Shown here piece by piece: positions 12,066 to 31,127 of a stretch of DNA of 64,000 nt (positions are counted from its first letter, which is position 1; every line of letters starts with the position of its first letter). The position numbers were made by a program, and so were the translations under genes. Source of the DNA: Thermacetogenium phaeum DSM 12270 (lineage in GTDB: Bacteria > Bacillota > DSM-12270 > Thermacetogeniales > Thermacetogeniaceae); contig NC_018870.1 in NCBI RefSeq assembly GCF_000305935.1, positions 2,527,001 through 2,591,000 of the forward strand, given 5' to 3'. The notes under the pieces were generated by a model. The model saw only the letters and a list, made by a program, of their open reading frames with translations. It was not told the DNA's origin and did no database searches.

Positions 12066-12121
12066 GAAATAAAAAACCACGAAGATCTCCCCCTTCCGGC
12101 AGGGCACAAGACCTTCGTGGT
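12066..12121 (-). promoter_or_regulatory. Leader hairpin A
   Basis: A 13-bp uninterrupted stem, ACCACGAAGGTCT with AGATCTTCGTGGT, has a G/C-rich loop and is followed by TTTTTTATTT. A weak -10-like TATTGT lies nine bases upstream of the stem, so the hairpin would be at the very 5' end of the message. Confidence 0.75.
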
Positions 12122-12293
12122 CCCTTATCGACAATATTCTTGATGCTGCCAGTTCAAAAACCACAAGCAAGGGACGGCTTCTGCCGCCTCTTTTTGCTGA
12201 GTTTACTTCGACACGAAACAGAAAATTCCTGCGCAGGATGCCGTAAAAAAACCGCTTCCGTCCCGATATTTTTCAGTCGGTGCCGGCAGCGCA
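12066..12293. repeat. Repeat R1 (~228 bp; copies R2, R3)
   Basis: Near-identical to 16736-16964 (R2), and identical in length over 11910-12251 to 24201-24542 (R3). It contains leader hairpin A, the upstream promoter region and the GCAGGAATT/TGTCGAA motif. The copies mark segmental duplications that spread one regulatory region to three units. Confidence 0.9.
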
Positions 12294-13664: not shown

Positions 13665-14603
13665 TCAAACAACACCTGTTTCCAATTCCCATTTGTCATC
13701 TACTCTCCATAGGATCATCCCCAACCGCACTCGATCCTTTCTCCGGAAAACTCCATTAGTTGCCCGTCGCTTTACGTGATCAGTCATCTTTTCTTTAACC
13801 TCAGGAGTCACCTCTGTATAGAACTGAAAGAGTTCCTCCAGATCAGCTATTGCCTCTGCTATCGGCAACTCTTGCTCCCAATCGTCCACCCAGACCTGAA
13901 AAGAAGGATAATAACCCGAGGTGTAGAGGTAGTTGAGGGGGTAGATAATATCGTGACCCGGCGGAGGCATTTCTTCGCCAAAGATCATCCGCCACAGCTC
14001 CTCCCGCACCGTACTCTGCCGCCGCCCGGCAAAGTCGCACAGAAAACACCACCGGCGGGAGCAGGTCATCATTTTTTGAAGGGTTTCCGCATCCCGCACG
14101 CCAGGCGTGAGGGAGGCAAAGACCAGGTCGAACCGCCTGGCCAGGCCTTCTTGCGCCGGGTCAATCCTTTCCCACTCCCGGTCAAGAAAGTGGACGTTTG
14201 CCAGTCCTTGTGCCTCCACCCTCTTTTGCAAGGCGGCCAGCACGGCCGGGGCCGGTTCCAGGGCCACCACCCTTTTTACCAGCCGGGCCAGAGGTATGGT
14301 GAAAGTACCCGCTCCGGCACCGATGTCCAGTACCTCCATTTGCGGGTGCAGTACTCCCTGTTGCTCGAGCCAGGCTAGTACACGGTCAACACGCCCTCTG
14401 GCGTTCGCCTGATCGGTCCAGCGTTCAACTTGCCCGGCCAGCCGGTTCCAGTATTCTATAGGGTTCAGGTCAGGGCGTCGCCTGGCAGATAGGGAATGGC
14501 GATGCGCCTCGTTCCACGTCTCTGTCCAGAAATGGGGATCCTTTAACGGATACCGTGAACAATTCGTGGCTCCCCCTTCGGGATTTAGCTTTTCTGTTAT
14601 CAT
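13665..14603 (-). CDS. Class I SAM-dependent methyltransferase
   Basis: 312 residues with motif I VLDIGAGAGTFTIPLA (~91-106), then VVALEPAPAV for the SAM ribose, and a conserved middle (FLDREWERIDP). The ATG follows GGGAGGGAG by five bases. It lies 21 bases after the SBP gene at 14625-16193 and resembles the methyltransferase at 5111-5929 in general layout (tryptophan-rich N terminus, same motif spacing, similar length). The recurring SBP-methyltransferase order suggests the imported or precursor compound is methylated, or that methylation senses it. Confidence 0.8.
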   Translation of the reverse strand: MITEKLNPEGGATNCSRYPLKDPHFWTETWNEAHRHSLSARRRPDLNPIEYWNRLAGQVERWTDQANARGRVDRVLAWLEQQGVLHPQMEVLDIGAGAGTFTIPLARLVKRVVALEPAPAVLAALQKRVEAQGLANVHFLDREWERIDPAQEGLARRFDLVFASLTPGVRDAETLQKMMTCSRRWCFLCDFAGRRQSTVREELWRMIFGEEMPPPGHDIIYPLNYLYTSGYYPSFQVWVDDWEQELPIAEAIADLEELFQFYTEVTPEVKEKMTDHVKRRATNGVFRRKDRVRLGMILWRVDDKWELETGVV

Positions 14604-14624: not shown

Positions 14625-16193
14625 CTATTCTTCTATATAGACAGTGTCCCATCTCGTGTTAATGCTTGAAGGATGAGGAGTAAGTCCCTTAACCTTTTCT
14701 TTTGCGGCATAGATCGTGTATAACGAGGCAATTGGTACAGCAGTTGTTTCTTCATCTATCAGAACATGAATGGCCTCCGCCACCAGTCGTGCTGCTTCCA
14801 CTATTTCAGGATTATTACGGGCATGATCAATCAAATTGTCAAACTTTCTGCCTGGCCAGAACGCTTTATTATAGTTGGCTTCATAATACCCTTTGCTATG
14901 GAAGAGAAGCTGCGGCAAGAAAGTAGGGTCACCGTCATTCTGGCTGCCCCGCTCCAGCCAGAGATCACCTTCTCCCTTTTTCAATTTATCGAAGTAAAGC
15001 CCACGATCTGCAACTTCCACCACCTTAACTCCAATTCCGACTTCCTTAAGCTGCTGCTGCAAGATTTCCGGTAGGGGTTCAAGCACACTAGCCGAAGGAA
15101 AACCGGAAACAAGGGTAAGTTCCAATCGCCGCCCGTTCTTGATCCTGATGCCGTCAGGCCCGGCTTTCCATCCAGCCTGTTCCAGGAGATTTTTGGCCCT
15201 TTCTGGGTTGTAGGCAAATCCGCTGACTAAATCCTTATGCTCCCTCAAGATGTCAGGAGGAATTATGGTCTGGCTGCTTATAGCATTACCTTCCCATACC
15301 TTCTGGATAATAGCCTCGCGGTCGATGGCCCAGCCAATGGCCTGCCGTATCCTTTTGTCCTGCAAAATGTCGAAGGGCTGTTTCCCGTTAACCATAAGGT
15401 AAAGAGCCACATAAGCACCAGTTTTTCCGCGCAACACCTGAATCCCTTGGGTTGTCTTAAGTTGTCCAATCATTTCACGAGGAATTTCTGTAATAACATC
15501 AACTTCACCTGCCTGCAATGCAAGGAGCCGGCTGTTGTGGTCTGGAATGAATTTAAAAACAATCCTATTCACTTTTGCAGGTTCCCCCCAATAATCAGGG
15601 TTACGCTCAACAACCAGCTCTTTATCTTGCTCGTACCTGGCAAAACAGAAGGGGCCGGTACCAATAGGTTTCTGGCTATCTTCATTTTCTTTGATTCGTA
15701 TGGCAAAACTTGGGTGAGCCAGGATTTCTGGAACGCGCATATTAGGTTCTGTAGTTACAATGTCCACCGTATAATCGTCAATTATTTTGACTACATCTTC
15801 TTTGATTTTCAAAATGGATTTTCCACTGGAGGGAATACCTTTTTCCAAGGTATACTTTACAGCTGCAGCATTAAAGTCCTCACCGTTATGAAACTTTATG
15901 CCTTTGCGCAGGTAAAAGCGCCAAGTGTTGCTCCCCTTATATTCCCATTTGGTGGCCAAAAGTGGCTCTAATTGATACTCAGGCGTAAGTCGAATTAAGG
16001 GCTCGCAAATATTGGCATTTAGTGAATAAATTCCTAACTCGCTGTCCCTTTGGGTATAACCATCAGCTCCAACGCCCACAACTAATTCCTTTTTGCTTAC
16101 CTGACCTTCCCTTTGTTGCCCACCACAACCCGCAGACCCGGCAACCAACATTATAATGACCAAGAAAGACACTATTTGCTTTAAATATTTCAC
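14625..16193 (-). CDS. SBP_bac_5 lipoprotein of a peptide/nickel ABC importer
   Basis: 522 residues with a lipoprotein signal (lipobox LVAGSAGC, residues ~16-23) and the family-5 binding fold (WRFYLRKGIKFHNGEDF, FCFARYEQDKELVVERNPDY, AIGWAIDREAII). GTG start after AAGGGG. It sits between the chimeric ATPase relic and the methyltransferase in a unit behind leader hairpin B. No permease is in the same unit, so it must borrow one. NikA-like or peptide specificity cannot be separated. Confidence 0.9.
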   Translation of the reverse strand: MKYLKQIVSFLVIIMLVAGSAGCGGQQREGQVSKKELVVGVGADGYTQRDSELGIYSLNANICEPLIRLTPEYQLEPLLATKWEYKGSNTWRFYLRKGIKFHNGEDFNAAAVKYTLEKGIPSSGKSILKIKEDVVKIIDDYTVDIVTTEPNMRVPEILAHPSFAIRIKENEDSQKPIGTGPFCFARYEQDKELVVERNPDYWGEPAKVNRIVFKFIPDHNSRLLALQAGEVDVITEIPREMIGQLKTTQGIQVLRGKTGAYVALYLMVNGKQPFDILQDKRIRQAIGWAIDREAIIQKVWEGNAISSQTIIPPDILREHKDLVSGFAYNPERAKNLLEQAGWKAGPDGIRIKNGRRLELTLVSGFPSASVLEPLPEILQQQLKEVGIGVKVVEVADRGLYFDKLKKGEGDLWLERGSQNDGDPTFLPQLLFHSKGYYEANYNKAFWPGRKFDNLIDHARNNPEIVEAARLVAEAIHVLIDEETTAVPIASLYTIYAAKEKVKGLTPHPSSINTRWDTVYIEE

Positions 16194-16310
16194 GTTTCTG
16201 CACCCCTTACTCCAGTTATTGCCCTTTGTACATCCGGATCGTTACGAAAAGTACTCTAAAAACAAGTGGCACCTCAACAAATGCCTCTCTCCCACCTCCT
16301 GCAGCACCGG

Positions 16311-16682
16311 CTAATTCTCCCGACATATCTGCCGGGCCTCGGGACAGCGGGGATGAAAGCGGCAACCCGGCGGAGGATCTGCCGGATTCGGCGGCTCGCC
16401 CTTGACTGTAACCTGCCGGCTATATCTTTGCCGTGGGTCGGGTTCCGGCACCGCCGCCAGCAACCCCCTGGTATAAGGATGGCAGGCGCCGGACAAGAGG
16501 TCCCCCGTCGGCAGCACTTCTACAATCTTGCCCAGGTACATCACAGCGATCCGATCCGCCAGGCAACTCACGGCGGCCAGATCGTGAAATATAAAGATGT
16601 ACGACAGCCCAAACCGCCTTTCCAGCTCTCGAAGCAAACATTTTTTTAAATCATCATCTGCCAGCACAGGTTCAGCGGGCAT
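16311..16682 (-). pseudogene. Chimeric, internally deleted DppD/DppF ATPase relic
   Basis: The N terminus (MPAEPVLADDDLK) and its upstream bases match the DppD gene start near 27288, while the rest ([16 protein letters not shown] to [10 protein letters not shown]) matches the C-terminal part of DppF at 25325-26293. Walker A, signature and Walker B motifs are all lost, so it cannot hydrolyse ATP. It arose by duplication of the dppD-dppF pair followed by one large internal deletion. The final residues are also truncated relative to DppF. Confidence 0.85.
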
Positions 16683-16735: not shown

Positions 16736-16792
16736 TGAAACAAAAACCACGAAGATCTTCCCCCTTCCGGCAGGGCACAAGACCTTCGTGGT
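16736..16792 (-). promoter_or_regulatory. Leader hairpin B
   Basis: Same ACCACGAAGGTCT/AGATCTTCGTGGT stem as hairpin A with TTTTTGTTT after it. It leads the relic ATPase, SBP and methyltransferase unit. Confidence 0.7.
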
Positions 16793-17104: not shown

Positions 17105-17848
17105 TCAAGACACAATTTTGCGCTTAAAAACCCCGGCTGCAATTACCGCCGTAATCACAGCCAGGCTCCACACATAGAGGCAGTGCAGGAAAGGGGCATT
17201 GCTCCTCATCCCCTCCACAGCCTGTGTCAGAGGAATGAGTTCCAGCAAAAAACGGATGGCCTGGGGGAAAACGTCCAGCGGGAAGAACACCCCGCACAGG
17301 AAGGAAAGCGGCAGTATAATCAATGTATTGGTGGCGCTGAAAATGTGGGGATCGGTATGGATGACGCCGCTGATTATTCCCAGGGATACAAAGAAAATTC
17401 CCAGTCCAACCGTAAAACCAAGGAGCCATCCCAGGGAAATTGTAAGACCGGGTACCACGAGCATGGCCATCAGCACAAAGCAGCCCGCAGCAAAAAGAGA
17501 AATCAGTGTCCCGGCAATCAGGTAGCCCGCTACTGCTTCCAGAGGGTAGATAGGGGCCACCATCATCAACAACTCCAGGTACTTGTCTACCTGCCTGGAA
17601 ATCCAGATCTCCGTGCTGAAGTGGGTGTAGCTGGCCTGCATTACGGAAATCATCAGTACACCGGGGAAGATGTATTCAAAATAGGCGCTCTCACCCGCCT
17701 GGGTAAGTGCCCCCACCCCCAGGCCAAAGCCAAAAAGATATAAAGCGGGAGAAAGCAGTGTCCGGACAGCAAAGTAGGGAAAGTGGATCAGATAATCATA
17801 GAGCACATATTCACAGGTAACACCGATGGCACGAATAGATCTGCGCAA
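17105..17848 (-). CDS. ABC-2 type exporter permease
   Basis: 247-residue membrane protein with about six helices of the ABC2_membrane/DrrB-NodJ type (FGFGLGVGALTQ, LSFLCGVFFPLDVFP). TTG start behind a GGGAGG SD, four bases after the ATPase stop. It forms an exporter with the ATPase at 17852-18781 at the 3' end of the RiPP-like operon, presumably exporting the mature product and giving immunity where needed. Confidence 0.85.
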   Translation of the reverse strand: MRRSIRAIGVTCEYVLYDYLIHFPYFAVRTLLSPALYLFGFGLGVGALTQAGESAYFEYIFPGVLMISVMQASYTHFSTEIWISRQVDKYLELLMMVAPIYPLEAVAGYLIAGTLISLFAAGCFVLMAMLVVPGLTISLGWLLGFTVGLGIFFVSLGIISGVIHTDPHIFSATNTLIILPLSFLCGVFFPLDVFPQAIRFLLELIPLTQAVEGMRSNAPFLHCLYVWSLAVITAVIAAGVFKRKIVS

Positions 17849-17851: not shown

Positions 17852-18781
17852 TTAATCCTCCCTCCCGGTCACTTCCAGGAAGACCTCCTCCAGTGAGGCA
17901 TCCCTTAAAGAAATACTTAAAGGTTGGAGCCTTAGGCAGATCTCTTGGACAAAATCACCCACCCGTTGCGGGCTACTATCAAGGGCAACCTCTACTGTTG
18001 TCCCACGGCTCTTACAGTTCTTCACGCCCGGGAAAGCACACAGCCATTCTTTTTCCTCAAGGGTAAGTTGACGATAGAGGTCCACGGTCAGAAGCCGTGC
18101 TACATCAACAATTTGGCGCAGTTCCCCAGGCCCACCCTCGGCAACCAGCCTTCCCTTCTTGATAATCAGGATCCTGTCGCAGAGTTGCTCCGCTTCCTCA
18201 AGGTAATGGGTAATCAGCAGTATGCTCTTACCGCGGCTCTTTAGATCTCTGATCATTTCCCAGAGTTCCCGGCGGGCATGCACATCCAGCCCGGTGGTGG
18301 GCTCGTCCAGCAAAAGTAAAGGAGGATCGTTGATCATCGCCCTGGCAAAAAGAATCTTCTTTCTCATCCCACCGGAGAGGTGGTCTCCGTTTTTCCTGCG
18401 GTGCTCCAGAAGATCCGCCCATTCCAGGGCACGGCGCGCCTTCTCCATTGCTGCCCTGCGGGGTAAGCCGTACAGGCGGGCGTAAAAGTAGAGGTCTTGC
18501 TCGATGCTATAGTGGGCGTTGAAGCTGAAGTCCTGGGTGCAGACTCCAAAAAGGCCCTTGGTTTTGATGGGGTCTGCCACGGCGTCGATTCCGGCAATAA
18601 AGACTCGTCCGGCGGATGGCCTGTAGAGGCCGGTAATAATCCTTAAGGTAGTAGTCTTTCCGGCCCCATTGGGCCCCAGAAAACCCAGCGCTTCTCCCTC
18701 ATTCAAGTCAAAATTGAGGTCGTCCAACACCTTCTGGCCGTTGAAATATTTGGTCAGGCCTCTAACTTCCAGCACCTTCAT
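17852..18781 (-). CDS. ABC exporter ATPase (DrrA/NodI type)
   Basis: 309 residues: Walker A GPNGAGKTTTLRI, signature LSGGMRKKILFARAM, Walker B LLLLDEPTTGLD, switch ITHYLEEAE, and the C-terminal DASLEEVFLEVTGRE typical of ABC-2 export ATPases. The ATG overlaps the stop of the radical SAM-like gene (ATGA), so expression is coupled to maturation genes. The partner permease follows directly. Confidence 0.9.
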   Translation of the reverse strand: MKVLEVRGLTKYFNGQKVLDDLNFDLNEGEALGFLGPNGAGKTTTLRIITGLYRPSAGRVFIAGIDAVADPIKTKGLFGVCTQDFSFNAHYSIEQDLYFYARLYGLPRRAAMEKARRALEWADLLEHRRKNGDHLSGGMRKKILFARAMINDPPLLLLDEPTTGLDVHARRELWEMIRDLKSRGKSILLITHYLEEAEQLCDRILIIKKGRLVAEGGPGELRQIVDVARLLTVDLYRQLTLEEKEWLCAFPGVKNCKSRGTTVEVALDSSPQRVGDFVQEICLRLQPLSISLRDASLEEVFLEVTGRED

Positions 18782-19683
18782 TTTTCAGACAACCTTCCAG
18801 AGGAAAAGTAGGGGCAGTAGTAGTCCTTCCCAGATACAGTCTTATTGGCCGGGCAGCCCCCGCCACAGATAGAAAAGAGCTCACAAATACGGCAGGTCTC
18901 ATTCATTGCCGCTACCTTTTCCCGAACTGTCCTCCATGCTCCTGCGATGTCTTCCTCCAGCCAGCAAAAGGGATGGGGAAAATGGGGACACGGTTTCACT
19001 TCTCCCTTTGCTCCGATGAACATGGCCAGCCTGCCGCCAGGACACAGATTGGGCCATCCCATTAAACCTAGCAAGGGCACATCTATAATGATATCCGTTA
19101 AAGGGAGCCTGCAAAGTTCTTTAAGCACCAGATGATAAGACTGGACATCCAGGGCATACTCATGCTGCCGGGGGACAACAAAGATGTTTGGTGTGAAGTC
19201 AAACCTGTGACACCAGTCAAGTACAGCCGTTGTTTCCCCGGAGTTTTCTCTACAAACGGGAAAAACTAAAATTTTCTCACCGGAATAATTTTCGGCCAGC
19301 CATTCGCCGAATTCGATTGTCTTCCAGAAACTGTGCTCCTCACCGGTGATCCGGTTATGCAGGTCAGGATTCAATGAAAAAAGACGCAAGCGGACTTGTT
19401 GAACATAATCCAGCCGCGGCCGTTCCTGAAAGACACAAAGTGTATCCACCGATGTGAGCCACCCCTTGTTCCTGGCCAGAGAAATGATTTCGCCAAAACG
19501 CAAATCTAAAAACGGCTCCCCTCCGGTTAAGACGAGAACACCTTTGTCATTGCTTGATTCAATATAATCGCAAACGCAGCGGTAGACCTGGTTGCTCAAA
19601 GGTTTGGTCCTCAAGGGTAACATTGATAATTCATTCAAGGCAAGGGCAAGAATAAAAGGACGGTTAAGTATTGCATCCTGCAT
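18778..19683 (-). CDS. Radical SAM-like SPASM protein lacking the CxxxCxxC motif
   Basis: 301 residues. The SAM-binding GGEPFLDL and a C-terminal cysteine-rich SPASM region (CPHFPHPFC, CRICELFSICGGGC, YYCPYF) are present. The place of the cluster-binding triad reads ALNELSMLPLRT, with no cysteines. It therefore should not hold the SAM-cleaving cluster but could still carry auxiliary Fe-S clusters. Likely a partner or scaffold for the active enzyme encoded at 19690-20640. Its start is six bases after that gene. The pairing of an active and a cysteine-less SPASM protein with a PqqD protein recalls GeoRSP-type gene sets. Confidence 0.75.
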   Translation of the reverse strand: MQDAILNRPFILALALNELSMLPLRTKPLSNQVYRCVCDYIESSNDKGVLVLTGGEPFLDLRFGEIISLARNKGWLTSVDTLCVFQERPRLDYVQQVRLRLFSLNPDLHNRITGEEHSFWKTIEFGEWLAENYSGEKILVFPVCRENSGETTAVLDWCHRFDFTPNIFVVPRQHEYALDVQSYHLVLKELCRLPLTDIIIDVPLLGLMGWPNLCPGGRLAMFIGAKGEVKPCPHFPHPFCWLEEDIAGAWRTVREKVAAMNETCRICELFSICGGGCPANKTVSGKDYYCPYFSSGRLSEK

Positions 19684-19689: not shown

Positions 19690-20640
19690 TCACCTTTCCA
19701 GCCAGCACAAGGGGTCTGAAGCCAAATAATCACCCGTTCGTGCCCAGGCATCGGCACGACACCCACGGCAGATGCTAATGTATTCACAGCCAGAGCATTT
19801 TCCTTTTAAGTTATGCCAATTGCGCAAGCTCTCAAACAAACGGGAGTTAAGCCAGATTTCTTTTAAACTCTGCTCTTTTAAATTGCCGGCAGGGATTCTT
19901 AACTTTACACAGGGGTAAACATCCATTTCGGGGGAAATGCCAATACCGGCAACTCCGGCGGTGCATCCACCAGTTATTTTATTCGGTCTGCGGTTCTCTT
20001 TCTTTTTCTCGTTAAACCAGAAGCTCAAGGGATCGTCATTGAGTATACCGTAATTCATGGCCTCCCTAAGCACATCCTTCCAAATAAGGGGATCATCCAA
20101 CGGATCAAGACCGTTACAACCGAAACCGCACATGCGCCCCATTTTAGGCACCGCGCCTACATCATTAGCGATCCGAACAATAGAACTTAATTGCCGGTAA
20201 TTGGACTGATTTACGGTGCAGAGAAAGGATACCGGTACGCTCCCTCTCAAATAGCGAGCAGCATCCACCGCTTTTTCAAAAACACCTGTCCCTCTAATCG
20301 CATCATGAGTGTCCGCATCGCCATCCAGGCTGATCTGGACCTCATCGAAGACGCCAAAGAAATCCCGGGGAAATTCCCTGACCAGGGTACCGTTGGTGGT
20401 CAGCAAAAGTTTTTGACAAACTCCCTTGAGTTCTCGTGCCAGGTAAAATACATCCCTTGACAGCAGCGGCTCCCCACCTGAAACTGTAATGAAGTGCGGC
20501 TTGATCTCTGCAAGTTGTTTTAATAACAGTGAAAAGTCATGAAGATCCTCAGGAGTATCATTACCCCGGTAGCAGTGACTGCAAGATAAATTGCATCTCC
20601 CGGTAATCTCAATTGTCACGAGGTGCAGGCCTAATCCCAT
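19690..20640 (-). CDS. Radical SAM/SPASM maturase
   Basis: About 316 residues with CNLSCSHC near the N terminus, ITVSGGEPLL, and a SPASM domain (CTAGVAGIGI, YPCVKL, CSGCEYISICRGCRADA). I start it at ATG 20640 because AGGGGGAAGG lies just upstream and the longer frame would overlap the PqqD-like gene. It lies directly after PqqD and before the cysteine-less homologue. Expected to modify the candidate precursor by a radical reaction. Confidence 0.88.
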   Translation of the reverse strand: MGLGLHLVTIEITGRCNLSCSHCYRGNDTPEDLHDFSLLLKQLAEIKPHFITVSGGEPLLSRDVFYLARELKGVCQKLLLTTNGTLVREFPRDFFGVFDEVQISLDGDADTHDAIRGTGVFEKAVDAARYLRGSVPVSFLCTVNQSNYRQLSSIVRIANDVGAVPKMGRMCGFGCNGLDPLDDPLIWKDVLREAMNYGILNDDPLSFWFNEKKKENRRPNKITGGCTAGVAGIGISPEMDVYPCVKLRIPAGNLKEQSLKEIWLNSRLFESLRNWHNLKGKCSGCEYISICRGCRADAWARTGDYLASDPLCWLER

Positions 20641-20668
20641 GGCAAACGCCTTCCCCCTGGGAATTTCT

Positions 20669-20893
20669 CTAAAGCTTGACCAGTCCTTTTCCTGCCAGCT
20701 GATTAAGAAAGTCTGAAATCTCCTCGTAGGCTTTTTCTCGCGGAACAGCATAATTGTTAATTACCAACTCAACCATGTCATTTACTGTATGTTTACCATC
20801 ACATAAATGCCAGATCTCAGCAGCATAGCTTCCCAGCACAATAAGCTGGTGCCCACGATAGAGGACCAGTTTATCGTCCTCCTGACGCTCCAT
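20669..20893 (-). CDS. PqqD-like peptide chaperone (RiPP recognition element)
   Basis: 74 residues of the PqqD fold: a beta part (KLVLYRGHQLIVLGSYAAEI) followed by WHLCDGKHTVNDMVELV and a helical end (YEEISDFLNQLAGKGLVKL). Such proteins bind leader peptides and present them to radical SAM enzymes. The ATG overlaps the stop of the upstream radical SAM gene (TAATG); a longer frame to 20947 exists but lacks support. It sits between two radical SAM genes, the key marker that this is a RiPP system. Confidence 0.85.
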   Translation of the reverse strand: MERQEDDKLVLYRGHQLIVLGSYAAEIWHLCDGKHTVNDMVELVINNYAVPREKAYEEISDFLNQLAGKGLVKL

Positions 20894-21915
20894 TACATCT
20901 GCACACTTTTGCTTCGGACAACAATCGGGCAGTAAGGATCCGAACATAAATAATCCCCCTCCAGAAAATAAGCCAGGCCGCGGCAGCCTCCCCGGCAGTC
21001 ATCCCGGTATTCGCAGGAAGCACAGGTTCCTTTAAGCAGTGCCGGGTTGCGCAGCGCCTTCAGCACTGGGGAATTGTTCCAGACATCGCTGATAGAATCA
21101 CGGTAAACATTTCCGATTGGAAGTTCCTCCAGATACGAGCAGGGGAAAATATCTCCGCTTGAGTTAATCCAGAGACGCAGATAGCCAGCTTCGCATGGGG
21201 AAGGTCGTCGTTTTTCTGGAGGAAGAAAAAGGAACTCCCAGGGAAAATGGATGCTGATATTATTTCGAAAAGCTTCTCTCCAACTTTGTCGCTCTCTAAT
21301 AAGATTATGAAATTCGTCTGGCGAAAACATGTTCTCGGTACAATTTTTTCCCCTTCCCAACGGGGCAAACGGTAAAAACCTGATACCATAGAGATTAAAA
21401 GGCAAAAGAAATTGTATAAACTCTGGAATGGTTTTTATGTTTTTCTTGTTTAAAACACAGGATACCGATACATTGAATCCGGCATTTTTTAACAACTTTA
21501 TTGCTTCAACTGCGGTGTAAAATGTATATGCCGGACGAAAATAGCCATGTATTTCCGGAGAGTGACCATCAAGGCTCACGCCCACCTCAAAAGAATCGCG
21601 GTAATTCAAAATTCTTGTAAAAGCTGCCATCATCTCAGGAACAAGCGTACCATTGGTTACAAAAGACACTTTAAACCCGCCAATTAGAGCATACTCACAT
21701 ACATCAAACAGTCTTTCGTAAAGAAGAGGCTCACCACCGCCGAATATTAATCTTTTAACCCCCATGTTTCTTGCGGCATTTATAATTGAAATAAGTTTTT
21801 CGTACGGAAAGACGTTTTTTTCTGTATTCGCATCTGCTGAACAATGTCGACAATCAAGATTACATTGAGAAGTAAGTTCAATGCACAACATTAAAGGACT
21901 CTTTGGAATATACAA
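20893..21915 (-). CDS. Radical SAM/SPASM maturase
   Basis: About 340 residues with CNLDCRHC, IFGGGEPLL, and a full SPASM domain (SPCEAGYLRLW, FPCSYLEELP, CASCEYRDDCRGGC, CSDPYC). I prefer the TTG at 21915: AAGGGGGTG sits six bases before it, and it aligns with the start of the homologue at 4813. The ATG at 21933 has no SD. First maturase after the precursor, separated from it by a hairpin. Confidence 0.88.
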   Translation of the reverse strand: MYIPKSPLMLCIELTSQCNLDCRHCSADANTEKNVFPYEKLISIINAARNMGVKRLIFGGGEPLLYERLFDVCEYALIGGFKVSFVTNGTLVPEMMAAFTRILNYRDSFEVGVSLDGHSPEIHGYFRPAYTFYTAVEAIKLLKNAGFNVSVSCVLNKKNIKTIPEFIQFLLPFNLYGIRFLPFAPLGRGKNCTENMFSPDEFHNLIRERQSWREAFRNNISIHFPWEFLFLPPEKRRPSPCEAGYLRLWINSSGDIFPCSYLEELPIGNVYRDSISDVWNNSPVLKALRNPALLKGTCASCEYRDDCRGGCRGLAYFLEGDYLCSDPYCPIVVRSKSVQM

Positions 21916-21955
21916 ATTGAACACCCCCTTCATGGGCCGTCAAATGAAGTATGGG

Positions 21956-21980
21956 AGGGGTGGAGATTGCCCCCACCCCT
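21956..21980 (-). promoter_or_regulatory. Hairpin between precursor and maturase genes
   Basis: A perfect 8-bp stem (plus strand AGGGGTGG / CCACCCCT) with a nine-base loop, eight bases after the precursor stop. No U-tract follows. Such hairpins after precursor genes often raise precursor over enzyme levels by partial termination or by protecting a 3' end. Confidence 0.6.
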
Positions 21981-21987: not shown

Positions 21988-22104
21988 TCAGTCTTCTTCT
22001 GGATCCGACATTTCTACCTGAGTCATTGCTCCTGAAACCCCTGAATTGTGATTATGCATGCACCCTGCAAAGTTGAATTCTTCCAATTCTAGCCTCCATT
22101 CCAC
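21988..22104 (-). CDS. Candidate RiPP precursor peptide (38 residues)
   Basis: A small frame too short for routine calling. The GTG start lies eight bases after AAAGGGGG; a GTG nine bases further upstream is in frame but too close to the SD. The N-terminal third is acidic and amphipathic (MEWRLELEEF, leader-like). Next comes FAGCMHNHNSGVSGA with one Cys, two His, two Asn and small residues (core-like), then an acidic tail (SDPEED). It sits between the SBP gene and the first maturase in one operon with PqqD, the usual precursor position. I do not recognise the family. The Cys/His-rich core could bind a metal or be crosslinked. Confidence 0.7.
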   Translation of the reverse strand: MEWRLELEEFNFAGCMHNHNSGVSGAMTQVEMSDPEED

Positions 22105-22170: not shown

Positions 22171-23760
22171 TCACTCTTCCCATCTTACGTTGACCAGCAA
22201 GTTATCAGAGTCACCATTGTAAAACATCCCATAATACGGGAACGGAGAAAAGTTTTTTACGTTTTTCTTGGCTACAACTACATGTTTTTGAAAGACTACA
22301 GGATAGAGGCCTACGAGTTCATCAATAGCTCTTTTTTGGGCCGTCTTGTATTTCTGAGCTGCTCCCTTGAAATCTTTTCTGGATTCCAGTTCCATTCCTT
22401 TCTCAATGAGTTTATCAACTTCGGCGTCCTTAATCCGGTGAAATCCCAGCAAACCGCTCTTACTATAAAAATGGTCGTAAAGCATGGTGCTTGAACTACC
22501 CCAAAAAATTCCTGTAGCATCTAAACATACATCGTAATTTCCTTTTTCCAAAATTACTTCGTCATAAGCTGCGGCTTCTAAAGTTACGATCTTTGTTTTA
22601 ATGCCGATTTCTTCAAAGCTAGAGGCAATTGTTTCTGCAATACTTTTATATTCTGCTTCAGATGCAAAATATGGAAATATTATTTCTATATTCTTACCGT
22701 TTTTATCAATGTAACCGTCATTATTGCTATCGGAGTAACCGGATTCTTCAAGCAATTTCTTGGCTTCTACTGGATTATATGGAAATCCCTGATATTCGTC
22801 TTCAATTGAATACAGCAGTCCTTTGGGAATTAATGAGTTAGCAGGGTCTGCGGTTCCGTAATAGATCTCCTTTGCAATATTTTCCTTATCGACAGCCATA
22901 CACAGTGCTTTCCTAAAGTTGATATCCTTTATATATGGCTTACTAAAGTTAAACATTAAAAACGGAAGGCCTTTAAAAGCATAAAAGGTGTTATATTCCT
23001 TTTCCAATTCCTTGAGAGATGGAAGAGAAGGATATACAGCTACATCAACATCTCCTGTCTTCAAAGCCAATATCCTTGTATTTGGATCAGGCACGATTTT
23101 AAACACTACCCTCTTAAAAAAGGGTTTTTCGCCCCAGTAGTTTTCGTTGCGTTCTACAATTACATACTGGTCTTTTGCTTCTTCTTTAAATTTAAAGGGG
23201 CCGGTACCGACGATTTCGCCCTTATTAAAGGCGTCCGGATCCATGGCCACAATAGATGGATGTGTCATCAAGTACGGCAGGAATGGATAAGGTCTGAGTG
23301 TTTTTATTTCCAGAGTATACTTATCAACAATTTTAAAGGAGTTATGATCCACAACCTCCTTGACCCTTTCGTATACATAACCTTTTTTCATCATATCCAG
23401 ATAAACGGTGAAAGCAAACTTGGCTGACTCAGCATCAAATTCCTTGCCGTTGTGAAATTTTACCCCTTTACGCAGGTTAAATCTCCAGGTTAGATCATCC
23501 AGTCGTTCCCAAGAAGTGACAAGCCCTGGCTGGATTTCCAGTTTTTTATTAAGAAAAAGAAGTGGTTCAAAGACCTGTGTACAAGTTGCAACTCCAAGAC
23601 CTTCCGGCGGTTTTTTAGCTGTATACCTGTCCAAAGCAATAACCAGTTCATCTTTTGTCTCCGCTTGCCTGGCCACCGGTTTTCCCTTACAACCGGCAAC
23701 CGAAAAAGCAATTGCTATAATAAGAATAATGGACAGCAAATGCCTGCCAGATCGTCGCAT
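22171..23760 (-). CDS. SBP_bac_5 lipoprotein, first gene of the RiPP-like operon
   Basis: About 529 residues with a lipobox signal (AIAFSVAGC), the family-5 fold (WRFNLRKGVKFHNGKEF, GPFKFKEEAKDQYVIVERN, ALCMAVDKENIA). The ATG at 23760 was chosen over GTG 23769 because AGGGAG lies nine bases upstream. A binding protein as the first gene of a peptide-maturation operon is unusual. The peptide precursor gene starts 66 bases after its stop. It suggests that the mature peptide, or its complex, is recaptured outside the cell for import. Confidence 0.9.
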   Translation of the reverse strand: MRRSGRHLLSIILIIAIAFSVAGCKGKPVARQAETKDELVIALDRYTAKKPPEGLGVATCTQVFEPLLFLNKKLEIQPGLVTSWERLDDLTWRFNLRKGVKFHNGKEFDAESAKFAFTVYLDMMKKGYVYERVKEVVDHNSFKIVDKYTLEIKTLRPYPFLPYLMTHPSIVAMDPDAFNKGEIVGTGPFKFKEEAKDQYVIVERNENYWGEKPFFKRVVFKIVPDPNTRILALKTGDVDVAVYPSLPSLKELEKEYNTFYAFKGLPFLMFNFSKPYIKDINFRKALCMAVDKENIAKEIYYGTADPANSLIPKGLLYSIEDEYQGFPYNPVEAKKLLEESGYSDSNNDGYIDKNGKNIEIIFPYFASEAEYKSIAETIASSFEEIGIKTKIVTLEAAAYDEVILEKGNYDVCLDATGIFWGSSSTMLYDHFYSKSGLLGFHRIKDAEVDKLIEKGMELESRKDFKGAAQKYKTAQKRAIDELVGLYPVVFQKHVVVAKKNVKNFSPFPYYGMFYNGDSDNLLVNVRWEE

Positions 23761-23841
23761 CCTAATCACTCCCTGAAAATAACATCAGTTCTCGGGTGAT
23801 CCCATCTCAAAAACAGAAATTCTCCATCTTTCACCCCTTTC

Positions 23842-23900
23842 AAGAACAAAAACCACGAAAGCCCTGCCCATCCTTCTGCATGGCAGATGACCTTCGTGGT
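23842..23900 (-). promoter_or_regulatory. Leader hairpin F ahead of the RiPP-like operon
   Basis: ACCACGAAGG pairs with CTTTCGTGGT (G-U allowed), an inner CTGCC/GGCAG stem sits inside, and TTTTTGTTCTT follows. It differs from A-C in all inner sequence but keeps the outer stem. Confidence 0.7.
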
Positions 23901-24171: not shown

Positions 24172-24288
24172 TCACTGTAGCAGCCCCTGGGTGGTTTTGA
24201 GGTCAACCTTGTCCACTGCCCGGATTGAACCCCCGGGACCCGGAAATTCCACCGACAGGTTCCTGATAAGAAGCAAATTGGAATCCAC
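24172..24288 (-). pseudogene. Truncated OppD N terminus (duplicate)
   Basis: The first 30 codons are identical to the OppD-like gene at 11997 through VDKVDL. Then the sequence diverges (KTTQGLLQ) and stops. All ATPase motifs are absent. It is part of repeat R3 and lies just ahead of the methyltransferase relic. Confidence 0.85.
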
Positions 24289-24542
24289 TATCAAACACCC
24301 CACCTGACAGCTTAAAAAAAGCCCCCGCCTACCCCTTCCCTTGCGGAGTAGGCACTGAAATAAAAAACCACGAAGATCTCCCCCTTCCGGCAGGGCACAA
24401 GACCTTCGTGGTCCCTTATCGACAATATTCTTGATGCTGCCAGTTCAAAAACCACAAGCAAGGGACGGCTTCTGCCGCCTCTTTTTGCTGAGTTTACTTC
24501 GACACGAAACAGAAAATTCCTGCGCAGGATGCCGTAAAAAAA
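24201..24542. repeat. Repeat R3 (342 bp)
   Basis: Collinear without gaps with 11910-12251: OppD start, second terminator-like hairpin, leader hairpin and upstream region. Flanks are unrelated. Confidence 0.92.
24357..24412 (-). promoter_or_regulatory. Leader hairpin C (in R3)
   Basis: Identical to hairpin A. It now leads only the truncated OppD and methyltransferase relics. Confidence 0.7.
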
Positions 24543-25324: not shown

Positions 25325-26293
25325 TCATCTCGAACTCAAGTGGCAACTCACCAGATGCCCTTCATTCACATCCTGCAGCATCGGCTCCTTCTCCCGACAT
25401 ACCTGCCGGGCCTCGGGACAGCGGGGGTGAAAACGGCAGCCCGGCGGAGGATCTGCCGGATTCGGCGGCTCGCCCTTGACTGTAACCTGCCGGCTATATC
25501 TCTGCCGCGGGTCAGGTTCCGGCACCGCCGCCAGCAAACCCCTGGTATAAGGATGGCAGGCGCCGGACAAGAGGTCCCCTGTCGGCAGCACCTCAACAAT
25601 CTTTCCGAGGTACATCACAGCGATCCGATCCGCCAGGTAACTCACGGCAGCCAGATCGTGGGAAATAAAGATATACGACAGTCCAAACCGTATTTTCAGA
25701 TCTCGAAGCAGGTTTAAGATCTGCAATCTGATGGAAACATCCAGGCTGGAAACTGGTTCATCGCAGACTATCAGCTCCGGCTCTAAGGCCAGCGCTCGGG
25801 CGATGTTGATGCGCTGAAGCTGGCCACCGCTGAACTCATGGGGATACCTGGAGATGTGCTCGGGATCGAGGCCGACCGTATCCAGCAGCTCGGCTACCCT
25901 TTGCATTTGTTCCTCTCTCGTTCCCAACTTAAAGTTCGCCAGAGGCTCACCGATGATCGACCCCACGGTCTGCCGGGGGTTGAGGGAGGAATATGGATCC
26001 TGAAAAATGATCTGAATTTTGCAACGGAGTTCCCGCAGCTTTCTTCCGTACAAAGAGGTGATTTCCCGGTTGTCATAGTAAATTTTTCCTGCGGTGGGTT
26101 CCTCCAGCCTGACAATTAACTTCCCCAATGTGCTCTTGCCGCACCCGCTCTCCCCCACCAGCCCCAGGGTCTCACCCCGTTCCAGGGTAAAGGAAACGCC
26201 GTCAACTGCCCGTATTCTCTCCCGCGTTGCCCAGAAAAGACCATCTCCTGCCGGGTAGTGTTTGAACAGGTCGCGCACCTCAAGAAGGCTCAT
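25325..26293 (-). CDS. dppF: DppF/OppF-type ABC importer ATPase
   Basis: 322 residues: Walker [10 protein letters not shown]-loop [13 protein letters not shown], signature [15 protein letters not shown], Walker [13 protein letters not shown], and C-terminal [14 protein letters not shown] oligopeptide domain. The ATG overlaps the dppD stop (ATGA); the longer frame to 26431 is inside dppD and rejected. Last gene of the second importer. Its 3' part was copied into the relic at 16311. Confidence 0.9.
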
Positions 26294-27288
26294 ACCGGCT
26301 GGGGCTCCTTTGCCCGAATCCTCTGTGCCTGATAGCAGGCCACCAGGTGGTCTGAGGCAACGGCCTCCAGTTGAGGCCTGGGGCCGTCGCACGCATCGAC
26401 CGCTACAGGGCAACGCGGGAGAAAGGCACACCTGTCGGGTAGATTGAGGAGGCTGGGCGGTTGGCCTTGAATGTGTTCAAGGGTTTCACATTTTCGATCC
26501 AGGCGCGGCACGGAACGCAGCAGCGCACGGGTATAGGGATGGCCGGGGCTTTCGAAGACTTCGATCGCCCCTCCGTACTCCACGATGGAGCCGGCATACA
26601 TCACCGCCACTTCATCGGCCATTTCCGCCACAACTCCCAGGTCGTGAGTAATCAGGATGATGGCAGTATCGAACTCCGCCTGCAACCGCCGCAGTTCTGT
26701 AAGAATTTGTGCCTGAACGGTAACATCCAGGGCTGTGGTAGGCTCGTCGGCAATGAGAACTTTGGGACGGAGAGCCAAAGCTATGGCTATCATTACACGC
26801 TGACGCATGCCTCCGGACAGCTGGAAAGGGTAACGTTTCAACAGTTTTTCCGGATAGGGCAGGCCTACCCTTGCCAACAGGTCAAGCGCCCTCTGCCGCG
26901 CTTCTGCCCGGGATACCCCTTCGTGAGAGATAATTGTTTCGATTATTTGAGTGCCGACGGTCAAAACCGGATTCAGGGAAGTCATCGGATTCTGAAAAAC
27001 AATGGATATTTCCTTGCCCCGGACACGGCGCAGCTGTTTTTGAGACAGGCTGAGCAGATCATATCCGTTCAGCCGGACCTCCCCGGACAAGATCTTCCCC
27101 GGTGGGGCGATCAGGCCGAGCAGTGAAAGGGAGGTAACGGTCTTACCGCAGCCGCTCTCCCCCACCAGCCCCAGAGTTTTACCGGCCTCTACTGCGAAGC
27201 TGACTCCGTTCACGGCCTTAATCACCCCGTGCCGGGTCAAAAAAATCGTTTTCAAGTCTTCAACTTCCAGCACAGGTTCACAAGGCAT
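26290..27288 (-). CDS. dppD: DppD/OppD-type ABC importer ATPase
   Basis: 332 residues: Walker A GESGCGKT, Q-loop IVFQNPMTSLNPV, signature LSGGMRQRVMIAIAL, Walker B LIADEPTTALD, C-terminal CAFLPRCPVAVDAC domain. ATG after GGGGGTA. It pairs with dppF. The two membrane genes upstream complete a classic B-C-D-F importer, except that dppC is interrupted, so the system may be inactive or depend on another permease. Confidence 0.9.
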   Translation of the reverse strand: MPCEPVLEVEDLKTIFLTRHGVIKAVNGVSFAVEAGKTLGLVGESGCGKTVTSLSLLGLIAPPGKILSGEVRLNGYDLLSLSQKQLRRVRGKEISIVFQNPMTSLNPVLTVGTQIIETIISHEGVSRAEARQRALDLLARVGLPYPEKLLKRYPFQLSGGMRQRVMIAIALALRPKVLIADEPTTALDVTVQAQILTELRRLQAEFDTAIILITHDLGVVAEMADEVAVMYAGSIVEYGGAIEVFESPGHPYTRALLRSVPRLDRKCETLEHIQGQPPSLLNLPDRCAFLPRCPVAVDACDGPRPQLEAVASDHLVACYQAQRIRAKEPQPV

Positions 27289-27342
27289 CCAGGCCGTACC
27301 CCCTCAACGCTCAACCGAAATGGTTTAATCTGCAACTGGCCC

Positions 27343-27671
27343 TCAATCTTTAAAAATTTCTCTGGGGTCGAGGGCGTCCCGCAGCCCGTCCCCCAACAGG
27401 TTGAAGGCCAGCACGACGATCATGATAGCCAGGCCTGGGTATAACATCAGCTGCGGAGCCACCTGCATATAAGGCCTGCCGTCGTTGAGCATCGCCCCCC
27501 ACTCCGGCGTGGGCGGCTGAGCGCCGAGGCCCAGGAAGGAAAGCCCGGAGATGGCCAGGATCAGCTTACCCATATCCAGAGTGGCCAGCACGATCACAGG
27601 TGAAAGAACATTGGGCAGAATGTGACGGATGACAATACCGAACTCAGATGTTCCGCACGCCCTTGCCGCAA
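27343..27671 (-). pseudogene. dppC permease, 3' part, cut by IS
   Basis: Encodes the C-terminal half of a DppC-type permease beginning at ARACGTSEFGIVIRHILPN with the EAA loop and last helices (GLSFLGLGAQPPTPEWG, LAFNLLGDGLRDALDPR). It joins in frame with 29566-30178 if the IS and one 6-bp duplication are removed: FVLAA followed by RACGT. The open frame now starts inside the IS, so no functional permease is expected. Confidence 0.9.
27666..27671. repeat. Target site duplication, left (CCGCAA)
   Basis: CCGCAA directly precedes the left inverted repeat; the second copy is at 29566-29571. Confidence 0.85.
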
Positions 27672-29565
27672 CCCACATTTCGCACCCTGAAATGAAAACG
27701 ACCTTTAATTTTATGATGGCTAAAAATGGCAACTAATAAAAGCTAGTTGGCATAAGGAGACCTCCCATAATTCGTACCGCAGTAAATCTCTTCACTGAAA
27801 CCGGCAAGATGCAAAAGCCGGCGGATATCTTCGGTCCACTGGTTCTCCGGAACCTGATGGATAAAACCGGAATCGGTTTCAATAGTGGCTATGGTAAGGG
27901 GTTTCAGCATCTCCAGCAGCATTGTCCCCGTTGGGCTGAAAGACTTGCGCTTCCCGGGGATCGCCAAAGGCTTACTTTCTTTGGCGAGATTACGCCGCAC
28001 CCGGCGCTGCAGCAGGGCATAAATCAGTAAGGCCATCAGGAAGACATAGCCTATAGCCACCACCCGTTCCGGGTTCTTGACGTAAATCCCATCCACATAA
28101 ACCGGATTCTTCAGGAAGCGGAAAGACAGTTCTACTGCAGTCTGGTTTTTGTATTCCCGCAGCACATCAGCGGGAGAAAGCTCTTTATCATCAAGAATGT
28201 TCGTAATCAACACGAAAGTAGCGGCTTTTGCCTTGAGCTCCTTGACAAACTCCTCATTGACAGAGACCAGAGAGGGAACCACGCGATAATAGGTCTGATA
28301 GTTCACCGGCTCACCCTTGCGAGGCCGCCCCACCCGGCGCTTGATCACCTGCTCCTCTTTGATTTCGGTCTTCAATTCAAAGAGCGGTGAAGCGTGCTTT
28401 GCCAAAAAGATCTCCAGTTCTTTTTTGGCATCGGCCTCGCAGAAGAATTTCCTTTTAGCAAGCTCATCACAGGCAGAAAGCAGCTCCGACTTCCTGGTTT
28501 CGATCATCTTCTTGATGCTTTTCTCTTTCTTCTTGTCCAGGGATGAGGAGTGCACTACGATGAACCGGTAGGTGTGGCCGTTGAGTTCCCTGACCGCCTG
28601 CTGGATCCTGTAAACTGCGGCATCCTTTTTCTGTACGAGACTGCCCAGGTGCTGCCACCGGTTCTCCGACCATGCCCAGTCTTTCAGTTCGGCGGAGATG
28701 CTGAAAGTTTCCGGCAGCCGTGAAATGAAGGGAATCTTCTTTTCAAACAGGAGATCAAGGTTGTCATTGGTGACCAGGGCTGAATCAGCAACGTAGATTC
28801 TTTTGCCGCTATCGCAAGGCAGCATGGCTTGCAGCCGGTCAAGGACCTCTTTATTCCATTTCTTATCGCTCATGTTGCCGTCACGCATTTCCCCAAAGAT
28901 GGGGATCCCTTCGCCGGTAGTGATGAGGCCGTAAAGAAACTGCTTCAGGTCAGGGCGGCGGTCTTTGCTGTAGCCGTAGGTGATGTCGAGTAAATGGTTA
29001 TCTTCATCTTCCCAGTCGTACTCTCCGGCAACTGAGATGGAAGTGGTATCGGCATGAACAACTCTGGTTTCAATCCGGTGCACTTTAATGGCCGATAAGG
29101 CCAGAGCCAGGTAAACCCTGTTGGGATGGGCTTTGGCCAGTTTGGTAAGGGCTCTGCCCAGGGCATCATCATTGAACGCATCAGCGGTTATCCCCTCACC
29201 GAAGAGCACGCTGAGGTTCATTTCACGATAGAACTCTTCCACCCGGTAGAGAGGTTTTCTGGCCGTCAGGACGTTGATGACGAGCGCCTCAATCAGTGTA
29301 CCGGGAGACAGGCGGCACTGCTTTGGATCCCACGTAACCATCTCATCGATGATGTCTCTGAGTTTAATCTCCCGGCAAAAGGCTGCAACCAACGGGGCAG
29401 CACCGGCATTCAGGATCTTGAATTTGGGTATGAGGCTTCTCATTCGAAATTCCCCCGATTATTGTCATTAGGGGAAAATTCGCGGAATTTTCTGGAATTC
29501 CTCCTTGCTCTGAAAATTTTTTTAAAAATTTTTTCTTAATGAAATGGCAGGGTGCGGAAGATGGG
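27672..29565 (-). mobile_element. IS1634-type insertion sequence, complete
   Basis: A 1894-bp element with 18-bp terminal inverted repeats at 27672-27689 and 29548-29565 (15 of 18 match), one transposase gene, and a 6-bp target duplication CCGCAA. Excision restores the dppC reading frame exactly. The intact ends and exact duplication argue for recent insertion. Confidence 0.9.
27743..29443 (-). CDS. IS1634-family transposase
   Basis: 566-residue DDE transposase of the IS4/IS1634 group with an N-terminal DUF4277-like domain (APLVAAFCREIKLRDIID). The first catalytic Asp is in VVHADTTSISVAG, the second in IYVADSALVTNDNL, and a YREK-like region is replaced by the C-terminal VELSFRFLKNPVYVDGIYVK with the catalytic Glu. 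Full length and uninterrupted, so probably active. Confidence 0.9.
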   Translation of the reverse strand: MRSLIPKFKILNAGAAPLVAAFCREIKLRDIIDEMVTWDPKQCRLSPGTLIEALVINVLTARKPLYRVEEFYREMNLSVLFGEGITADAFNDDALGRALTKLAKAHPNRVYLALALSAIKVHRIETRVVHADTTSISVAGEYDWEDEDNHLLDITYGYSKDRRPDLKQFLYGLITTGEGIPIFGEMRDGNMSDKKWNKEVLDRLQAMLPCDSGKRIYVADSALVTNDNLDLLFEKKIPFISRLPETFSISAELKDWAWSENRWQHLGSLVQKKDAAVYRIQQAVRELNGHTYRFIVVHSSSLDKKKEKSIKKMIETRKSELLSACDELAKRKFFCEADAKKELEIFLAKHASPLFELKTEIKEEQVIKRRVGRPRKGEPVNYQTYYRVVPSLVSVNEEFVKELKAKAATFVLITNILDDKELSPADVLREYKNQTAVELSFRFLKNPVYVDGIYVKNPERVVAIGYVFLMALLIYALLQRRVRRNLAKESKPLAIPGKRKSFSPTGTMLLEMLKPLTIATIETDSGFIHQVPENQWTEDIRRLLHLAGFSEEIYCGTNYGRSPYAN

Positions 29566-29571
29566 CCGCAA
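29566..29571. repeat. Target site duplication, right (CCGCAA)
   Basis: Second copy of the duplicated target beside the right inverted repeat (29548-29565). Confidence 0.85.
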
Positions 29572-30178
29572 GAACGAACTCCTTTTCCTTCACAGATAAA
29601 ACCATCCCCCGGATAACGCGCGCGTAACCAACCCACCACACTGAGGCCACGGCAAGCATCACATTAAAGAGACCGGGCCCCAGCATCCCCGCAATCACAA
29701 GGGCCAAAATCAGGTCGGGAAATGCGAGGAGAATATCAACGAGCCGCATGAGCAGATTATCCACCCGGCCGCCGCAATAGCCGGCAAAGGTACCGAAAGG
29801 GATGCTGATAAGCATAATAGTTGCCAGAGCCATAGCCGCTGCCGCCAGAGAAATCCGCGTGCCGTAAATCAGGCGGGAAAGAAGGCAGCGGCCGAGGTGG
29901 TCGGTACCCAAGGGATAAGCACGGGAAGGAGGAGACAGCCGCTGGTCCAGGGCCACCTTGAGGGGATCGTGGGGCATCAGGTAAGGGGTCAGGATCCCGA
30001 CCAGGACTACCAGGGCAACGATAATCAGCCCCAGCAAAGCCAGCTTATCTCCGACCAACCTCCTTACAGCCGACCGCATAAGCCCCTCTTCCACAAGCTC
30101 TTTTGGGGGCTCTGCCATCACCCCGGCGGGGGCACCGGCCGGCACAGCCCCCTCCCCTCTCCGAGGCGAACCGCTCAT
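29566..30178 (-). pseudogene. dppC permease, 5' part, cut by IS
   Basis: N-terminal ~205 residues of a DppC-type permease: a Pro/Ala-rich start (MSGSPRRGEG), first helix (LALLGLIIVALVVLVGILTP), family motif YPLGTDHLGRCLLSRLIYG, and helices up to KEKEFVLAA, where the IS lies. Start ATG 30178 is one base after the dppB stop. After the junction the frame reads into IS sequence (HLPHPAISLRKNF) and stops. Confidence 0.9.
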
Positions 30179-30179
30179 C

Positions 30180-31127
30180 TCATCTTCTCCCTTCCAGGCG
30201 GATGCGCGGATCGAGCAGCCCATAGGCAAGGTCCACCATCAAATTGGCCACCACGAAGACGACCGCCATAAAGAGGGCATAGCCCTGAATCACCGGATAG
30301 TCCCTGTTAAAAATGGAATCAACGGCGAACTTGCCCACCCCCGGCCAGGCAAAAATGGTCTCCACGATCACCGACCCTCCCAGCAGATGACCGAAACTCA
30401 TCCCGAAAAGGGTTACCGCGGGGAGCAGGGCATTTTTCAAGGCATGACGGCCTATCACCCATCTTTCACGGAGGCCCCTGGCCCGGGCCGCCCTAATGTA
30501 CTCCTGCCCCAGCACCTCCAGCATACCGGAACGCAAGAGCCGGGCGTAGACGGCAGCCATCCCAAAACCGAGCGTTACCGCCGGCAGCACCAGATGGTTC
30601 AGGCCGCCCCGCCCCATGACCGGGAATATGCCCAGCTTTACCGAAAAGAGGTATATAAGCATCAATCCCAGCCAGAATCCGGGTAGTGAAGCACCCAGCA
30701 GGGCGCAGATGCGGCTGAGGTGATCCAGCAAGGCATGACGGTAAAGGGCGGCCAGAATTCCCGCAGGAACGGCAAGAAGCACCATAACCCCCAGCGCCGC
30801 TACTGTTAACTCCAGAGTCGCCGGGAAACGGGAAAAAATCTCTTCCGCCACCGGCCTGCCCGTACGAAACGACTTTCCCAGGTCGAAGTGCAGGGCATTC
30901 CAGAGCCACCTGGCGTAGCGCACATGAACAGGGTCATTCAGCCCCAGTTCGCGGCGCAGGGCTTCCACCGCTTCCCGCGTCGGCTCCATCCCCTCTGCCC
31001 TCAGCATCAACTCCGCCGGATCCCCCGGCGCAAGATTGATGAGGGCAAAGGTGATGACGGACACTCCCAGCATCACAGGAATCAGCCATAGCAATCTTTT
31101 CAGGAGATACTGCTTCATTCTCTCCAC
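30180..31127 (-). CDS. dppB: DppB-type ABC permease
   Basis: 315 residues: N-terminal helix, INLAPGDPAELML motif, five more helices, EAA loop ARGLRERWVIGRHALKNALLP, C-terminal DPRIRLEGRR. GTG 31127 or ATG 31118 could be the start; both are near a GGTGGAG stretch. First gene of the second importer behind leader hairpin G. Confidence 0.9.
   Translation of the reverse strand: MERMKQYLLKRLLWLIPVMLGVSVITFALINLAPGDPAELMLRAEGMEPTREAVEALRRELGLNDPVHVRYARWLWNALHFDLGKSFRTGRPVAEEIFSRFPATLELTVAALGVMVLLAVPAGILAALYRHALLDHLSRICALLGASLPGFWLGLMLIYLFSVKLGIFPVMGRGGLNHLVLPAVTLGFGMAAVYARLLRSGMLEVLGQEYIRAARARGLRERWVIGRHALKNALLPAVTLFGMSFGHLLGGSVIVETIFAWPGVGKFAVDSIFNRDYPVIQGYALFMAVVFVVANLMVDLAYGLLDPRIRLEGRR

Follow-up and report, generated by a model that had tools for sequence, protein, structure and literature searches.

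The precursor gene and its conservation

The window, a 64,000 bp stretch of the Thermacetogenium phaeum DSM 12270 genome (RefSeq accession number NC_018870.1; coordinates 2,527,001 to 2,591,000), carries on its minus strand, in this order, genes for a family 5 solute-binding lipoprotein (SBP1), a short peptide, a radical SAM/SPASM maturase (A), a PqqD-family protein, a second radical SAM/SPASM maturase (B), a SPASM protein (C), an ABC ATPase and an ABC-2 permease. The peptide gene (window coordinates 21988..22104) starts with a GTG at 22104 and ends with a TGA stop at 21988-21990, and its 38 aa product, MEWRLELEEFNFAGCMHNHNSGVSGAMTQVEMSDPEED, comprises the leader-like segment MEWRLELEEFNF, the core AGCMHNHNSG and an acidic tail. 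The coordinates in the initial annotation, which was made from the sequence alone, were correct, and the open reading frame lies on the minus strand, the plus-strand reading being rejected because of stops in frame. The AAAGGGGGTGTTTAAA said to precede the GTG start is present on the minus strand before the GTG at 22104, and the composition was also as annotated, with an acidic N-terminal third followed by FAGCMHNHNSGVSGA and an acidic tail. A further in-frame GTG is present at 22113, nine bases upstream; 38 aa is the better length, as all relatives start (ATG-GAA-TGG...) at the codon aligned with 22104.

A tblastn-type search of 20 genomes of the family (relatives labelled G003, G004, G006, G011 and G016) identified homologues of the peptide in relatives with E values of 2.7e-10, 1.8e-8, 8.6e-7 and 3.0e-6, giving five homologous precursors in four genomes, namely T. 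phaeum, G003, G006 and G016, the last with two. The common stretch is MEWxLELEEFxFAGCMxN, after which the tails differ, and the residues invariant in all five are M1, W3, L5, E6, E8, E9, F10, F12, G14, C15, M16, N18 and G22. The core is conserved to the same extent as the leader, with G14, C15, M16 and N18 invariant within it. Of GCMHNHNSG, whose conservation had been proposed as a check, the GCMxN core is kept, but His17 and His19 vary, with Ser or Cys in their place in two paralogues. The sum of Cys and His residues is three or four in each of the five precursors. In G016, contig C41 (L012/L013) carries two precursor cassettes with differing cores, GCMHNC and GCMHNH, and several tandem copies of a NikA-like binding protein are found beside them.

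Retention of the reading frame and an excess of third-position changes had been set beforehand as the test of coding, and both were observed. The Shine-Dalgarno sequence, start codon and frame are kept across the homologues, and pairwise differences in codons 2-19 number 36, 23 and 94 at the first, second and third positions, respectively (P = 0.002 for the third-position excess, by column shuffling). A chance open reading frame, for which the short length, the GTG start and the failure of the peptide to match any Pfam or NCBIfam model (in NCBIfam even at E 10) might speak, is extremely improbable, being refuted by five homologues with a conserved start, frame and core together with this excess.

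When 398 phylum genomes, ~380 of them outside the family, were searched with single sequences and with a profile, no convincing homologue of the precursor turned up beyond the family. Seven extra weak profile matches (E 0.005-0.04) were obtained from the 398 genomes, and none of the six that were read out had the leader motif or a neighbouring radical SAM cassette; they were judged to be due to chance.

The maturation and transport genes

Maturase A (20893..21933, minus strand, as for all features below whose coordinates are written in this form; 346 aa; Pfam PF04055, 2e-24 and PF13186, 2e-10) retains an intact CxxxCxxC motif and has PqqE (6c8v; 3e-18) as its closest solved relative. In one scan against genome contigs it found only remote radical SAM proteins of 22-28% identity. 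It is followed by a PqqD-family RiPP recognition element protein (20669..20947; 92 aa; PF05402, 3.9e-15), a component found in all complete cassettes, and by maturase B (19690..20751; PF04055, 4e-17 and PF13186, 7e-9), which shares 69-75% identity with its relatives. Both A and B contain CxxxCxxC and the SPASM cysteines. The listed start of maturase B (20751) overlaps the PqqD gene, and comparison with the relatives suggests that the true start is probably near M38, at about 20640. Protein C (18778..19683) has the radical-SAM fold without the CxxxCxxC cluster motif. The radical-SAM cysteines are missing in all six homologues, whereas GGEPF and seven cysteines of the SPASM region are invariant, and the predicted fold, a low-confidence model, matches radical SAM folds, the best being SkfB (6efn; 1e-7).

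The initial annotation had read the short gene as a precursor peptide, whose Cys/His core could bind metal or carry a thioether or carbon crosslink, and directed attention to adjacent radical SAM genes. The reading as a precursor was borne out by the two intact radical SAM/SPASM genes, the PqqD-type protein and SPASM protein C directly downstream, and the case for 21988..22104 encoding a RiPP precursor is strong. A GC-rich hairpin lies between the precursor and maturase A (21956..21980), and hairpins that are strong but unrelated in sequence occupy this gap in 5/5 cassettes. Such hairpins after the precursor gene are often seen where the precursor must be made in excess.

The same gene order was found, with local variation, in G003, in G006 and twice in G016. 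Cassette genes are present in 6 of the 20 family genomes, including G011, whose contig breaks off in front of enzyme A, and G004, which has cassette remnants. In G016, one copy of enzyme A is divided between two frames, either through decay or through an assembly error. In 5/5 cassettes the precursor is directly before maturase A, and it follows or adjoins a NikA-like binding protein. This fixed place and the PqqD partner, together with the conserved leader-like N-terminus of alternating hydrophobic and acidic residues, argue against an unmodified small metal-binding protein (a metallochaperone) that is beside radical SAM genes by chance; the peptide is short and acidic with a Cys/His core, as such a protein might be, but we consider this quite improbable.

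None of the NCBIfam maturase models listed has its cut-off attained by A or B. The nearest model is GeoRSP_rSAM for A (161/400 bits) and heme b synthase for B (173/500 bits), and the sactipeptide and ranthipeptide models AlbA (83/850 bits), StsB (131/625 bits) and PapB (58/340 bits) are not reached. Protein C weakly resembles one named SPASM-only partner, GeoRSP_SPASM (E 0.001; 18/300 bits). No curated family fits the cassette, which is a new radical-SAM RiPP cassette family; within the data searched, it occurs in a single family of anaerobes.

The exporter is made up of a DrrA-like ABC ATPase (17852..18781; PF00005, 4e-31), 82-89% identical to those of G006, G011 and one G016 cassette and 70% identical to that of G003, and an ABC-2 permease (17105..17848; PF01061, 1e-16) with 71-96% identity to its relatives. 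SBP1 (22171..23769; PF00496, 4e-86), a NikA/CntA-like lipoprotein, is encoded directly upstream of the precursor. Its closest solved relative is NikA (1.6e-43), and a fold search with a moderate-confidence model also returned NikA first (1e-33), with CntA carrying staphylopine-metal included among the matches. As the curated cut-offs for nickel-binding proteins are not reached (TIGR02294, 227/393 bits; NF045468, 218/600 bits), SBP1 is NikA-like rather than an established NikA. Oligopeptide-binding proteins sharing this fold come slightly below NikA in score, and peptide binding by SBP1 would suit a metal-peptide ligand, by analogy with MbnE and methanobactin.

With PqqE as the closest solved relative of enzyme A, PqqD as a separate protein and a GeoRSP-like trio of radical SAM, PqqD and SPASM-only proteins, the product could be a redox cofactor derived from the peptide by a pathway like those of PQQ or mycofactocin, where PqqE/MftC-like enzymes work with PqqD. 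However, the precursor lacks a Glu/Tyr pair like that of PqqA, such a cofactor would not call for an exporter or for extracellular binding proteins, and no associated dehydrogenase was found among the cassette genes scanned, making this unlikely.

A second NikA-like solute-binding protein (14625..16193; PF00496, 2e-88) and a class I SAM methyltransferase, MT1 (13665..14603; PF13649, 5e-11), are encoded beyond the exporter, and in G003 the homologue of MT1 is directly after the exporter gene. Nik/Opp-type importer genes are located at 25325..31127, and homologous NikB and NikC genes are part of the G003 cassette operon. There the cassette run extends via small gaps or overlaps into the SAM methyltransferase, NikB and NikC, which ties the importer genes to the biosynthetic genes.

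In T. phaeum, one NikC-type permease gene is split (29522-30229 and 27343-27732) by a transposase gene (27743-29443; 566 aa). A 300-base segment that includes a copy of the RNA element described below and the start of a NikD gene is exactly duplicated (11909-12208 and 24200-24499), and another duplicated pair (16263-16562 and 25337-25636) is 92% identical; the importer operons have recombined with each other, which has rearranged the region. A short CobN/Mg-chelatase-like protein of 470 aa (8919-10331), with only about 290 residues of the family, is encoded within a Nik importer operon and is followed by a MotA/TolQ/ExbB-type protein (8231-8911), a pair conserved in relatives (L015, L045).

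Peptide export together with family 5 binding proteins would also fit a pheromone circuit, in which a signalling peptide is exported and then re-imported by an Opp/Nik-type system, as for streptide-type RaS-RiPPs. This reading is improbable, as the cassette genes examined include no recognisable transcription regulator, the closest match of SBP1 is NikA and not OppA, and the operons are under a metal-regulon leader, as set out in the next section.

A terminator-like RNA element shared with metal-uptake genes

A terminator-like RNA element (23848..23900), for which about 80 copies were compared, lies upstream of the operon that includes SBP1 and the precursor. It is ~50 nt long and forms the hairpin GACCACGAAGGTC...CTTCGTGGTTTTTT. 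Further minus-strand copies in the window are at 4831-4883, 12071-12121, 16742-16792 and 24362-24412, and others were found in the cassettes of the relatives and in loci L013, L014, L015, L044, L096 and L099-L149. The element is upstream of 5/5 precursor operons, and in one G016 cassette it is 48 nt before the precursor itself. Another radical SAM/SPASM gene (3788-4861), a fragment of which is present in L016, is directly under one of the copies in the window, and no precursor for it was recognised among the small open reading frames listed nearby.

In a hand-anchored comparison of 77 distinct elements, in which counts are inflated by related copies, a mean of 8.7 of the 9 positions of the terminator stem are paired, with both sides changed at several, and at least four T occur in the six bases after the stem in 76/77. 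An alternative 5' hairpin (GACC/GGTC), exclusive with the terminator, also keeps its pairing through changes in these elements. This comparison replaced an RNAalifold analysis of 16 elements, which gave poor support for the inner helix and modest support overall. Rfam returned no match to the element at gathering thresholds, the weak matches being due to chance, and no description of the element, or of a nickel riboswitch, was found in the literature searched.

A covariance model located the element in 20/20 genomes of the family and in 55 of the 398 phylum genomes. Among 51 downstream genes outside the family, Pfam assignments included CbiM (7), methyltransferases (6), ECF S components (5), FmdE (4), SBP_bac_5 (3), CobN (2), LarC-type Ni_insertion (2) and ZnuA (2). 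As the element elsewhere in the phylum precedes CbiM/NikM, LarC, CobN, ZnuA and Nik genes, the cassette appears to be part of a metal-acquisition regulon. We read the element as a probable attenuator of a transition-metal (nickel/cobalt) acquisition regulon, and it is possibly a new metal-responsive attenuator or riboswitch.

This leader bears on whether the cassette makes a radical-SAM antimicrobial peptide of the sactipeptide or ranthipeptide kind, with the ABC-2 pair serving export or immunity and the nickel-type binding proteins as mere neighbours. Bacteriocin clusters typically have ABC-2 exporters beside their RiPP maturases, the similarity of maturase A to the SkfB, AlbA and StsB models is weak but real, and restriction to one lineage, and to only part of the family, is as for an accessory weapon. 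However, there is a single invariant Cys, the core is conserved as much as the leader, a NikA-like binding protein adjoins the precursor and the operon carries the metal-regulon element. An antimicrobial peptide would explain the exporter and the patchy distribution but would leave the NikA-like protein, the importer genes and the leader element unexplained, and we judge it the less likely reading, though the likeliest of the alternatives.

Proposed function and comparison with known systems

The exporter, the NikA-like protein beside the precursor, the importer genes in G003 and the shared leader element are jointly explained if the cassette makes a radical-SAM RiPP that carries metal, being exported and then recaptured, with nickel or cobalt favoured. 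We give this reading a probability of roughly one in two. Crosslink chemistry, metal binding and the metallophore role are what we infer; the NikA-like binding protein and the RNA element of the metal regulon lend indirect support to metal binding by the peptide. The PqqD protein would bind the MEWxLELEEF segment and hand the peptide to the maturases, which would act on the GCMxN core to form a thioether or C-C link, the invariant Cys15 or a residue next to it being the most plausible site. The product would then be exported by the ABC-2 pair and chelate a transition metal via Cys/His ligands, and the NikA-like protein would recapture the metal-loaded peptide for import through Nik/Opp-type permeases. 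Expression of the cassette may be tied to metal supply via the attenuator-like leader RNA common to nickel/cobalt uptake genes.

CODH/ACS needs nickel, and this metal is favoured by the CbiM/NikM, LarC and NikA associations together with the CODH/ACS-based metabolism of the host; the element is also found before FmdE, ZnuA and siderophore-type genes, and sequence alone does not single out the metal of the regulon. T. phaeum is an acetate-oxidising acetogen that uses the Wood-Ljungdahl pathway (PMC3551663).

Several observations count against the metallophore role. Both core histidines, His17 and His19, vary among the precursors, the cassette has no recognisable leader protease and one NikC gene of T. 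phaeum is split by the transposase gene. Transport systems with family 5 binding proteins also take up plain peptides, and a DrrAB-like ABC-2 exporter could serve immunity to a toxic product. The fullest form of the proposal is more tentative and, on balance, doubtful: that this is the first radical-SAM-made ribosomal nickelophore, matured by two radical SAM enzymes and a conserved SPASM protein without radical-SAM cysteines, with export and NikA-like recapture, and controlled by a new RNA of ~50 nt, a metal-responsive attenuator that nickel/cobalt uptake genes throughout the phylum also carry. No radical-SAM nickel metallophore was found in the literature searched, and the metallophore role, if confirmed, would to our knowledge provide the first radical-SAM RiPP nickel carrier.

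If the proposal is correct, acetogens secure the nickel or cobalt needed by their central pathway with a ribosomal metal carrier made by radical SAM enzymes, a route to metallophores exists besides MNIO enzymes and opines, and a SPASM protein without a radical-SAM motif acquires a role. The small cassette is open to heterologous expression. The RNA element, which many phylum genomes carry before metal-uptake genes and for which Rfam gave no match at its thresholds, may represent a new regulator that responds to metal.

The best model for enzyme A and the PqqD protein is GeoRSP (TIGR04302/04303/04304), which likewise combines a radical SAM/SPASM enzyme with a PqqD-family protein and a SPASM protein. 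However, the scores (TIGR04302, 37/100 bits; TIGR04303, 161/400 bits; TIGR04304, 18/300 bits) are all far below the cut-offs, and the T. phaeum cassette has two radical SAM enzymes together with a precursor, an exporter and a NikA-like binding protein. With the cut-offs missed for A, PqqD and C, the cassette resembles GeoRSP in architecture but falls outside GeoRSP as the curated models define it. The SynChlorMet cassette (ScmA-F) shares two radical SAM/SPASM proteins and a PqqD-related protein, but scores were again low (ScmD, 35.5/100 bits; ScmE, 133/400 bits; ScmF, 104/400 bits) and no Scm partner genes were recognised.

In the PQQ (PqqA/D/E) and mycofactocin systems, a PqqE-like radical SAM/SPASM enzyme similarly receives its short peptide from a stand-alone PqqD-type protein. 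However, the PqqE (117/381 bits), PqqD (28/46 bits) and MftC cut-offs are missed, the T. phaeum peptide is unrelated and an exporter is present. Sactipeptides and ranthipeptides also depend on radical SAM/SPASM maturases that modify a core with Cys, whereas the T. phaeum precursor family has one invariant Cys and its maturases reach no sactipeptide or ranthipeptide model cut-off.

On the uptake side, the closest parallels are staphylopine/CntA and NikA nickel uptake, as SBP1 most resembles NikA and has CntA with a bound metallophore among its fold matches, although the metallophores of those systems are not ribosomal peptides. Methanobactin, a chalkophore RiPP, is a ribosomal metallophore that is exported and recaptured with MbnE, a binding protein related to OppA/AppA (PMC7558416). 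Although it is made by MNIO (DUF692) chemistry and carries copper, and no MNIO domain was found among the T. phaeum cassette proteins scanned, it provides a works-like model for an exported and recaptured ribosomal metallophore.
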